Below, piece after piece: positions 48,277 to 52,112 of a stretch of DNA of 64,000 nucleotides. How positions within the stretch are numbered: the stretch's first letter is position 1; each line of letters begins with the position of its first letter. The DNA lies in contig JAOZHX010000022.1 in the NCBI GenBank assembly GCA_026014665.1, forward strand, positions 124,001 to 188,000, given 5' to 3'. The stretch is from Candidatus Bathyarchaeota archaeon. Lineage in GTDB: Archaea; Thermoproteota; Bathyarchaeia; Bathyarchaeales; Bathycorpusculaceae. A program made the translations under genes and the position numbers. Below the pieces are notes generated by a model that worked only from the letters and a program-made list of their open reading frames with translations, searched no databases and was not told the origin of the DNA.

Positions 48277-50652
48277 ATGAAAGTCGTATTTTGGCTTCTT
48301 GACCTTAACCCTAAAATCGAACCAGACAGAACCGAGCTGTGGCTTTGGGGAATCGATTCAGTTGGCAACCGCTTGCTCGTTATTGACAGGAACTTTACTG
48401 CTTACTTCTATGCTGTGCTGCAGCAAGGAGCAGATGCCTCGAAAGTTGTAGAATCAATCATCAGCAAATATGGGTGCTCAATTGTGAAGGCGGATGTTGT
48501 TCCGCGACGCTTTTTCGGCAAGCCAGTGACAGCAATAAAAGTATACTGTAGAGATTCAACCCAAACTGGCAAGATTGCAAAACAACTTCGAAGCATCGAA
48601 GGAGTTCAAGACTGCCTCGAAGACGACATTCGCGTCGTAATGCGCTACCTCATTGACAACAATCTTTCTCCGTGCAGTTGGATGGAGGCACAAGTAACCG
48701 AAGAAGAGGTGCCTAAGTGGGTGAGGGTTACCCATGTGTATGCTGTTTCAGAGCCTCCCAAAATGCTAGACGATGTCTCAGTGCCAGCGCTGCGAACTTT
48801 GGGTTTCTCTTTGATTTGCTATAGCCGTGAAGGTTCGCCAAAGCCTGACCGAAACCCGATCCTGATTATTTCGACTGTTTCCAGTGGTGGAAAAGAAAAA
48901 CAATTCATCGTAGATGAAGCTAAAAATGACGAACCAGTCATTGAAAAATTCATTCGATACATTCGAGATTTTGATCCAGACGTCATAACAAGCTACGGCG
49001 CAAACATGGTGAACTGGCCATATTTACGTGGCAGAGCCGCCAAATTTGGAATGGCACTCGATTTAGATAGGGCGCATACGGAACCGCACACAAGTGTATA
49101 CGGTCACGTTTCAATCACGGGTCTTGTCAACCTGGATTTGATGGATTTTATGGATGTGTTTCCAGAAGTTAAAGTGCAGACACTTTGGAATTTGGCAAGT
49201 TATTTGGGTACAGCGGATAAGAACAAGGGTTTTATCGACGATGTCTTGTTTGCTGATTACTGGGATGACCCGCAAAAACGCGGAGAGCTGAAACGGTTCG
49301 GTTTGGAAAGCGCCCGTAAAGCCCACGAAACCGCAAGCTTGCTTTTAGATTTTGCCATGCAACTATCCAGCCTAGTCAGTTTGCCGTTGGACCATGTTAT
49401 GACTGCCGCGACGGGTTTCCGAGTGGAATGGTTCTTGATTAAGCGGACACAAGAAATCGGAGAACTCATCCCCAAACGCCTTGAGCAACCGTATATACCT
49501 TATGCTGGTGGTCTTGTGCTTTCGCCTAAACCTGGCTTGCATGAAAACATAGCGGTTCTAGATTTCAAATCTATGTACCCAAGCATTATGATTGCATACA
49601 ATCTCTCACCCGACACTTACATCGCTCCAGATGAGCCAGAACCAACCAGCGGTGTCTACGAGGCACCAGAGGTCCACCACAAATTCCGCAAAGAACCACC
49701 AGGATTCTACACTGAAGCACTCACCTACCTAATCAACGTACGCAATTCTATACGGAAAAGAATGAACTCGCTTAACCACAAAACAATTGATTACCGAGTG
49801 TTAGACGCAAGACAGAAAGCCGTCAAAATCATAACGAATGCCACATATGGTTATGCAGGTTGGACAGGCGCAAGATGGTACATCAAACCCGTCGCCGAAG
49901 CAGCCTCAGCGTGGGGTAGGCTCACAATCCAAACTGCCATGCAGATGGCACATGACATGGAAATTGGCGTCGTGTACGGGGACACAGACAGCTTATTCAT
50001 CAACTATGACCAACGTAAGGCACAGCAACTCCAAGATAACATCAGACTTAAACTCAAATTAGAAGTTGAATTGGGCGATGTTTATCAACGCATTTTCTTT
50101 ACTGAAGCAAAAAAACGCTATGCTGGGTTACGGCAAGACGGCAGCCTCGACATTGTGGGGTTGGAAGTTATCCGCGGCGACTGGGCAGAGGTTGCTAAAA
50201 AAGTGCAGGAGCAAGTGCTCGAGATTGTCCTCAAAGAACAGTCGCCCAAGAAAGCAGTTGACTACGTTCACACTATTATTCGTGAACTGAGGAAACGGAA
50301 AATTCCCTTCACTGACTTTATCATTTGGAAAACATTAACTAAGCCACCAGAAGATTATGCCATAAAGGCTCCGCATGTGGAAGCAGCAAAAATGCTTAAA
50401 GAAAAAGGTTGGCGCTTGACTGGCGGTGACAAAGTCGGCTATGTTGTGTTGGCTGGAAAAGGACGTTTGTACAATCGTGTGAAACCTTACGTTTTCGCTA
50501 ACCCAAACGAAGTAGACGTTGATTATTACGTGACCAATCAGGTTTTGCCAGCCGCTGCTCGCATCCTGATCTTCTTTGATGTGACGGAAGCAGAACTGCT
50601 CGAAGAAACAGGAGAAACACAGGAAATTAGAAGTCTGATGGATTACCTTTAA
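48277..50652 (+). CDS. polB: Family-B DNA polymerase with disabled exonuclease domain
   Basis: 791 aa. The polymerase domain is intact: motif A DFKSMYPSIM (Asp429), motif B KIITNATYGYAG, motif C YGDTDSLF (Asp569 and Asp571). The N-terminal exonuclease domain keeps its fold landmarks but lacks all key acids. Exo I is LGFSLICYS, with Ser178/Ile180 where DxE is expected. Exo II is SYGANMVNWPYL, with Asn246 for Asp. Exo III is RFGLESARKA, with Ser345 for Asp and Phe341 for Tyr. Proofreading should therefore be absent, suggesting a repair or translesion role like inactivated PolB2-type enzymes, not the main replicase (inference). Its stop overlaps that of dnaG. Confidence 0.92.
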   Translation: MKVVFWLLDLNPKIEPDRTELWLWGIDSVGNRLLVIDRNFTAYFYAVLQQGADASKVVESIISKYGCSIVKADVVPRRFFGKPVTAIKVYCRDSTQTGKIAKQLRSIEGVQDCLEDDIRVVMRYLIDNNLSPCSWMEAQVTEEEVPKWVRVTHVYAVSEPPKMLDDVSVPALRTLGFSLICYSREGSPKPDRNPILIISTVSSGGKEKQFIVDEAKNDEPVIEKFIRYIRDFDPDVITSYGANMVNWPYLRGRAAKFGMALDLDRAHTEPHTSVYGHVSITGLVNLDLMDFMDVFPEVKVQTLWNLASYLGTADKNKGFIDDVLFADYWDDPQKRGELKRFGLESARKAHETASLLLDFAMQLSSLVSLPLDHVMTAATGFRVEWFLIKRTQEIGELIPKRLEQPYIPYAGGLVLSPKPGLHENIAVLDFKSMYPSIMIAYNLSPDTYIAPDEPEPTSGVYEAPEVHHKFRKEPPGFYTEALTYLINVRNSIRKRMNSLNHKTIDYRVLDARQKAVKIITNATYGYAGWTGARWYIKPVAEAASAWGRLTIQTAMQMAHDMEIGVVYGDTDSLFINYDQRKAQQLQDNIRLKLKLEVELGDVYQRIFFTEAKKRYAGLRQDGSLDIVGLEVIRGDWAEVAKKVQEQVLEIVLKEQSPKKAVDYVHTIIRELRKRKIPFTDFIIWKTLTKPPEDYAIKAPHVEAAKMLKEKGWRLTGGDKVGYVVLAGKGRLYNRVKPYVFANPNEVDVDYYVTNQVLPAAARILIFFDVTEAELLEETGETQEIRSLMDYL

Positions 50653-51791
50653 GCTGCTGGAATCGCATCTTGAAAAGTTACCAGTTCAACGTTTAGGGCT
50701 GGTTTGACTGCTTCTGATATGCGTGAGGCAACGATGCGTCGGATGTTCTTTTCGCCTGCGATGTCTACGATTCGCTGTGTGATTATGCCGTCGAATACTA
50801 CTGTATCAACGCCGCCCATTTGCTGTAGCCTCTCGGCTAATTGGCTTACAGGCAACTTCTCGATTAATTCTAGTTTGTCATTGAACAGGACGGCTTCAAG
50901 TGTACCGACCAACGCCTTTGCTGCTTGACCAATCTGCTCTGGCACTTCAACTTTTACTCGTTCAGGAACTTTTTTTGCTGGCGCAGGTGGTTTACCGATA
51001 ATTTCAGATATTGGAACTTTGTTTTCTAAAGCTTCAGCGATTTCTTTGCAATTGCATTCTTCGATCTCCTTGCCCCTTGGAGCTCGTCCGACAAACTTTA
51101 TGCTCGTGACTTGGAGAAGTTCTTTGAGAATTAGGTCGCCGCCTCGGTCGCCATCAAGCAGGGCAGTGGCTGTTTTCTCTTTGGTAATCTTTTTTATTGA
51201 GTCAGGGACTTTGGCGCCTTCCAAAGCGATGGTGTTGAATATGCCACATCGCATGAGATTTATGATGTCTGCGCGTCCTTCCACAACGATTATTTCTTTA
51301 GCAGCCTCTAAACCCGGACCAGCAGGCAAATCCTCAGGTCCATATTTTTCCACTTTCCCAACTTTCATGGTATCGCTTATTTCCTTGTAAACCTCGTCTA
51401 CGCTGGGCATGGATTCGACGTTCCATTTGTGCAAGATTTCTTTGGCGCGATCAATGATTACTTTTCGCCTAGATTCACGGATGTCTTCGATTTTGTCTAG
51501 GTTTACTTTTGCTGAGCAAGGTCCGACACGGTTTATGCTTTCTACGCTTGCAGCTATGAGCGCTGTAGAAACGCGATCAAGGCTCGTTGGGATGGTAATC
51601 GAACCGTTTGTTCGGTCGTTCTTAGAATGTAGGTCGATTTCTATTCTGCCGATGCGCCCGGTTTTCTGCAGTTCTCGTAGATCAAGTTCAGGTCCAAAAA
51701 GTCCTTCTGTTTGCCCGAAAACTGCACCTATCACATCGGGTTTTTCTACTACTCCGTCTATTTCAAATCTAGCATGTACAACGTACTTTAT
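50649..51791 (-). CDS. dnaG: Archaeal DnaG primase-like protein
   Basis: 380 aa from codon ATA 51791, where the expected archaeal opening KYVVHARFEIDGVVEKPDV begins. The frame is open back to TTG 51965 but that extension is unlike DnaG and a TATA-like AAATATAAT (about 51838-51846) lies inside it, so I give the start low certainty. Toprim motifs IVVEGRADIINLMRCG and ATALLDGDRGGDLIL are intact; VVFDGIITQRIVD closes the protein. Archaeal DnaG associates with the exosome and shows limited primase activity. It converges on polB with a 4-base overlap of stops. Confidence 0.87.
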   Translation of the reverse strand: MKYVVHARFEIDGVVEKPDVIGAVFGQTEGLFGPELDLRELQKTGRIGRIEIDLHSKNDRTNGSITIPTSLDRVSTALIAASVESINRVGPCSAKVNLDKIEDIRESRRKVIIDRAKEILHKWNVESMPSVDEVYKEISDTMKVGKVEKYGPEDLPAGPGLEAAKEIIVVEGRADIINLMRCGIFNTIALEGAKVPDSIKKITKEKTATALLDGDRGGDLILKELLQVTSIKFVGRAPRGKEIEECNCKEIAEALENKVPISEIIGKPPAPAKKVPERVKVEVPEQIGQAAKALVGTLEAVLFNDKLELIEKLPVSQLAERLQQMGGVDTVVFDGIITQRIVDIAGEKNIRRIVASRISEAVKPALNVELVTFQDAIPAA

Positions 51792-52112
51792 CGTAAAGGT
51801 TTGGGATGCTCCCGTAAATATGCAACTCCTGAAATTATATTTGATTATGTTAATCGCACTTATGCGAGGGTTTCTCGCAATGATGAGATTGATTATTACT
51901 GATTTAGAATTTAGGTGCACGCCTTCTAATATTACTTGTGGTCTACCGCTCCATTGACTCTTCAATATCCAAGAATTTTTTTCTAAAAAATATTTTTGGA
52001 AGAAACCTTATTTTTTGTTTAATCATTCACAAAAATAAAAAAAATACCGACTAAACGCTTCAAGACCCTCCAACCTTAAATAACAAAACACACCACTCTT
52101 GACACGGTGCAG
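51792..52112. other. Divergent region between dnaG and the ParB-like gene
   Basis: About 320 bases. It holds a perfect stem-loop TGCGAG-loop-CTCGCA at 51863-51879 and a run of A/T tracts at about 51970-52060 that is notably AT-rich. It should contain promoters for both flanking genes. If the longer dnaG frame were real, half of this would be coding. Confidence 0.4.

Follow-up and report, generated by a model that had tools for sequence, protein, structure and literature searches.

The window analysed here, a 64,000-nucleotide stretch of a contig from Candidatus Bathyarchaeota archaeon, encodes a full-length archaeal PolB3 DNA polymerase from which the acidic residues of all three exonuclease motifs are missing. 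Among archaeal B-family polymerases PolB3 is the most widespread, and it is regarded as an enzyme that proofreads, acting in replication or repair. We think it likely that this protein is an active PolB3 that has given up proofreading and most uracil sensing, and that it serves repair or translesion synthesis as an accessory polymerase that is dispensable and probably tethered to the clamp. The loss of proofreading together with much of the uracil check suggests a split of labour, in which PolD and PolB1 proofread and PolB3 is error-tolerant. The clade of such exonuclease-null (exo-null) PolB3 includes a whole class, the Bathyarchaeia, which are very abundant archaea of sediments.

The polymerase gene and its active sites

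The gene lies at 48277..50652 on the + strand, begins with an ATG and specifies 791 amino acids that match the Pfam families DNA_pol_B (2.4e-65) and DNA_pol_B_exo1 (2e-19). The closest solved structure is the PolB3 of P. calidifontis (5MDN; E 2.4e-196), which aligned over the entire length. In a tree of polymerase domains the protein grouped with PolB3 (support 96), with PolB2 (100) and PolB1 standing apart. A search for relatives in viral contigs found none.

The N-terminal domain (residues 1-139; 48277..48693, + strand, as are the other parts of the gene given here) carries an eroded uracil-recognition pocket and is followed by an exonuclease-fold domain (residues 140-366, approximate bounds; 48694..49374) whose catalytic acids are gone. 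In the Exo I region (residues 172-188; 48790..48840) the D and E are replaced by S178 and I180, in the Exo II region (residues 236-252; 48982..49032) the D by N246, and in the Exo III region (residues 338-352; 49288..49332) the Y and D by F341 and S345. Polymerase motif A (AVLDFKSMYPSIM; 49552..49590) retains D429, motif B (RQKAVKIITNATYGYAG; 49810..49860) is intact, and motif C (VVYGDTDSLFINY; 49969..50007) retains D569 and D571. The C-terminal tail IRSLMDYL (50608..50649) resembles the PIP-type tails with which other PolB3 bind the clamp, and may tether the protein to PCNA.

A preliminary description of this DNA had named S178, I180, N246 and S345 as replacements of exonuclease acids and D429, D569 and D571 as retained polymerase aspartates; on re-indexing, all seven residues were exact, and the replacement of the Exo III Tyr by F341 adds to them. 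The gap-free alignment with 5MDN reads FDIEVY against FSLICY in the window protein for Exo I, NSNGFDWPYL against GANMVNWPYL for Exo II, and YVLDDVR against FGLESAR for Exo III. Because 5MDN aligns without gaps through all three motifs, no shift of the alignment recovers the acids. The proposed alignment with PolB1, PolB2 and PolB3 gave the same result, with the exonuclease acids absent from the window protein and its polymerase motifs A, B and C intact. The central claim of that description, an intact polymerase site in a protein where a canonical two-metal 3'-5' exonuclease site is impossible, was therefore upheld, and it extends across the class. The identity as PolB3, the clade-wide extent and the proofreading-type PolD and PolB1 of the same cell go beyond what that description stated. 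We regard it as close to certain that the protein has no canonical exonuclease site, and predict from the sequence that 3'-5' exonuclease activity is absent as well. An AlphaFold model from a 13-row alignment (mean pLDDT 52.6) left the polymerase domain unmodelled and was too poor for inspection of the exonuclease pocket.

The uracil pocket, defined by Pfu residues 7, 36-37, 90-93, 111-116, 119 and 123 (PMC11676844), has also changed. Relative to Pfu, the window protein carries A42 for P36, S94 for P90, T97 for V93, A101 for R97 and V120 for F116. These pocket residues are strongly conserved in the proofreading PolB3 of Thermoproteota and eroded in the class: the equivalent of Pfu R97 is found in 29/29 proofreading PolB3 and in none from the class, P36 is kept in 47% and F116 in 8% of class members, and V93 has mostly become L, I or T. 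Stalling at uracil has probably been lost from class PolB3.

Downstream, a Toprim primase homologue, dnaG (50649-51965, - strand), converges on the PolB3 gene and overlaps it by 4 bases, just as the preliminary description had placed it, tail to tail. An adjacent convergent dnaG was found in 39/54 class rows (a few genomes are repeated among them, and two rows have no downstream sequence). Since the convergent polB3/dnaG pair is already known in crenarchaea (PMC4104785), its presence here is known PolB3 synteny and carries no special meaning. The window dnaG ORF opens with a TTG, and conserved similarity begins near KYVVHARFEIDG, so that its N-terminus is longer than the alignment suggests; the dnaG copy of a related genome, G024, has stop codons upstream of the KYVVHARFEIDG point, and dnaG probably begins at a start codon inside the TTG ORF. 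An aRF1-like ORF lies close by in 25 loci, upstream in many of them. We found no conserved damage-response genes around the class PolB3 loci, where the neighbours are housekeeping genes (dnaG and the aRF1-like ORF), and no sign in these loci of a dedicated operon; no small gene beside the window gene fits PPB2.

Distribution, history and selection of the exonuclease loss

The named records related to the window PolB3 come from Candidatus Bathyarchaeota/Bathyarchaeia, and PolB3 is present in about half of 201 sampled genomes of the class. The class alignment has 89 rows, made up of 76 from numbered genomes and 13 named-record loci, with several genomes duplicated. The Exo I Glu appears in 0/89 rows, the Exo I Asp in 5/89 and the Exo III Asp in 0/89, and D429, D569 and D571 are each present in 89/89. 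The Exo II Asp is still found in 72/89 rows, where some metal binding could persist; the full set of replacements that includes Exo II, as in the window protein, characterises a minority of the class. Because every sampled class PolB3 is without the Exo I Glu and the Exo III Asp, and the pattern recurs across independent MAGs, we rejected chance or assembly error as the cause of the missing acids. In one exo-null PolB3 (L027, G040), motif B is split by an intein that carries a LAGLIDADG domain (Pfam Intein_splicing 4e-19).

Among 41 PolB3 from other Thermoproteota families, 5MDN included, 29 carry all four exonuclease acids. The remaining 12 fall short of the set and belong to families f31, f32, f33, f34, f37, f44, f45, f53 and, with a partial set, f55. 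The f55 protein (L126, from G354) retains the Exo I DxE, has lost the Exo II and III acids and is sister to proofreading enzymes.

The main tree was built on polymerase-domain columns only, so that the exonuclease trait could not shape its topology. In this tree 35 exo-null PolB3 form one clade (SH-aLRT 98) nested within proofreading PolB3, L126 represents a separate exonuclease loss, and PolB2 and PolB1 branch elsewhere. With N-terminal and polymerase columns combined, a branch with support of 100 parts the proofreading PolB3 and the Thermococcales sequence from all nulls except L126, and the PolB1 outgroup attaches inside the exo-null group via a very long branch. We take the loss to be derived because of the polymerase-only tree and because Thermococcales PolB3 group with the proofreading enzymes; a single ancient loss behind the exo-null clade is the simplest reading. 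Deep branching within this clade is poorly resolved. A topology forcing PolB2 together with the exo-null clade was not rejected (AU p = 0.43), in a test weakened by long branches. That exo-null PolB3 and PolB2 share a proofreading-less ancestor, with the window-type enzyme an intermediate between replicative PolB3 and PolB2, seems to us unlikely.

The loss was aimed at the catalytic site, because the conserved columns that were lost concentrate in the Exo motifs: of 54 exonuclease-domain columns conserved in proofreading PolB3, 8/14 in the Exo motifs and 3/40 outside them are gone (p = 3e-4). The polymerase domain retains 111/118 conserved columns. Median dN/dS for close pairs is 0.066 in the polymerase domain and 0.15 in the exonuclease domain (Nei-Gojobori, with synonymous sites partly saturated), and purifying selection continues on both domains. 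Measured against the polymerase domain, the exonuclease domain changes more quickly than it does in proofreading PolB3: the ratio of exonuclease to polymerase distances is 1.5-1.7 in exo-null PolB3 and 1.05-1.4 in the proofreading enzymes. The motif-focused loss and low dN/dS therefore argue that the exonuclease domain has been kept as a structure, with its active site gone.

Other polymerases of the genus and the role of PolB3

The genome that holds the window encodes four B-family polymerases, namely a PolB1 (L002) whose exonuclease motifs are intact (DIE / GDDFD / Y..RD), the window PolB3, a PolB2 (L003) and a divergent protein (L004), along with one PolD (DP2 and DP1) and a Y-family polymerase. 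The translated DP1 retains the DxH, GD, GNHD and GHxH phosphoesterase motifs. L004 (G000:C3) is highly divergent, with exonuclease Asp/Glu present and a motif C of EVDTDGYW, and possibly derives from a mobile element. Several families of the window organism's order also have a B-family polymerase of about 640 aa (L165-L170, in G028, G032, G029, G035, G037 and G030) that is sister to PolB1 in the tree and has intact polymerase motifs (DFESLYPS, YGDTDS) and no recognisable exonuclease domain.

PolB3 is dispensable in the genus. Among its 32 genomes, PolD and PolB1 are each found in 32, PolB3 in 15 and PolB2 in 11, and mapping on the PolB1 tree gives about four changes of PolB3 state. G024, which is sister to the PolB3 carriers, preserves a remnant (L203, G024:C54:33000-41000) in which PolB3 residues 185-213 directly abut the last 20; this remnant sits beside an intact dnaG, and PolB3 was thus deleted in place. 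The in-place deletion and the patchy presence together argue that replication in these genomes does not depend on PolB3. PolB3 occurs in 10/11 of the PolB2 genomes of the genus (Fisher p = 5e-4, kinship ignored); counting phylogeny leaves only 3-4 independent contrasts, and we rejected the association as not significant.

We infer that the window PolB3 polymerises DNA, keeps no residual exonuclease, binds PCNA and acts in repair or translesion synthesis. Such an enzyme would extend primer ends that are mismatched or lie just beyond a lesion, ends that a proofreading polymerase would degrade or at which it would come to a halt, and bulk replication would fall to PolD, with its DP1 nuclease motifs intact, and to PolB1, with its exonuclease motifs intact. 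An accessory role for a PolB3 has precedent, because the exo-less PolB2 works efficiently as an extender, acting well on mismatches and lesion ends (PMC8764526), and because S. islandicus lives without PolB3, which is non-essential there and whose deletion alters damage sensitivity (PMC8100216). Against the accessory role stand the lack of conserved damage-response neighbours and, unlike PolB2, the lack of a special motif C or operon.

The protein could instead still be replicative, for example on the lagging strand, if PolD/DP1 or mismatch repair provided the proofreading in trans. PolB3 is tied to replication elsewhere in archaea (PMC4104785; PMC7544198), many members retain the clamp-type tail, and the gene occupies a core chromosomal site beside dnaG; however, PolB3 has been lost about four times in one genus where PolD and PolB1 never were, and the deletion remnant in G024 points the same way, so we judge a replicative role unlikely. 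It is improbable, too, that PolB3 is a primer extender like Pol alpha, acting in a low-fidelity hand-off from primase to replicase that makes proofreading unneeded. Pol alpha likewise belongs to the B family and has an exonuclease domain that is inactivated (PMC7544198), and dnaG adjoins the window gene, but dnaG is convergent and not co-transcribed, and a proofreading crenarchaeal PolB3 has the same dnaG arrangement (PMC4104785). The 791-aa protein moreover has neither a primase fusion nor a zinc C-terminal domain, and its dispensability in the genus also speaks against this role.

Patchy presence, the deletion remnant in one relative and the faster evolution of the exonuclease domain might be taken for decay, with the loss of the exonuclease acids as a first step towards a pseudogene. 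The trait is class-wide, however, with the polymerase aspartates at 100% and low dN/dS in both domains, and after one ancient loss the gene has long been conserved, which makes decay very improbable. We give hardly any credence to an exonuclease that works through substitute metal ligands, such as E344 or, in relatives, the Exo II Asp. Position 344 is D or E in many members, and the Exo II Asp persists in most rows, but position 344 is not conserved over the class; E344 was rejected as a substitute acid since this position is D, E, Q or A in proofreading enzymes too, beside the invariant D345. The window Exo I also holds no acid at all, and the Exo I Glu never occurs in the class.

Comparison with known polymerases

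Among the nearest known counterparts are archaeal PolB3 such as the P. calidifontis PolB3 (5MDN) and crenarchaeal Dpo3, with which the window protein has in common full-length homology, domain order, polymerase motifs, a convergent dnaG and its clade. It differs in that the exonuclease acids and uracil-pocket residues, intact in 5MDN and most Thermoproteota PolB3, are replaced, so that it lacks the active 3'-5' exonuclease motifs that are a usual, though not strictly defining, mark of PolB3. Its own PolB1 (L002) shares the intact polymerase motifs, but has intact exonuclease acids, falls in a separate clade and is present in every congener.

PolB2/Dpo2 (PMC8764526) resembles the window protein as an accessory B-family enzyme with an inactivated exonuclease domain and a patchy distribution. 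PolB2, however, has HxxxD in motif C (HGIVD in L003) where the window protein has YGDTD, has no Exo III where the window protein has an alignable Exo III region in which the acids alone are changed, and sits in a PPB2/iRadA operon, whereas the window protein has a full exonuclease domain and a dnaG neighbourhood. Motif C, Exo III and neighbourhood rule out membership of PolB2. At one PolB2 locus (L155:2665-2931), an 88-aa ORF that overlaps the true gene start had no Pfam match and no recognised adjacent inactivated RadA; its size and place suggest PPB2 (arCOG07300).

In the main texts of the freely available papers searched, we found no prior description of an exo-null PolB3, nor any text treating Bathyarchaeota and PolB3 together. 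The main PolB surveys, in the portions covered here, attribute an inactivated exonuclease to PolB2/G2, Pol alpha, Pol zeta and epsilon-C and to no other polymerase. The exo-null PolB3 would thus be an undescribed variant of a known polymerase family, in which the clade-wide loss is the surprising part and the proposed function follows by standard reasoning. Eukaryotic Pol zeta and Pol alpha are likewise B-family enzymes with an intact polymerase and an inactivated exonuclease domain, but unlike the window PolB3 they are multi-subunit enzymes with C-terminal metal-binding domains, and they lost the activity independently. The loss in PolB3 thus has parallels in Pol alpha, Pol zeta and PolB2, where it occurred separately.
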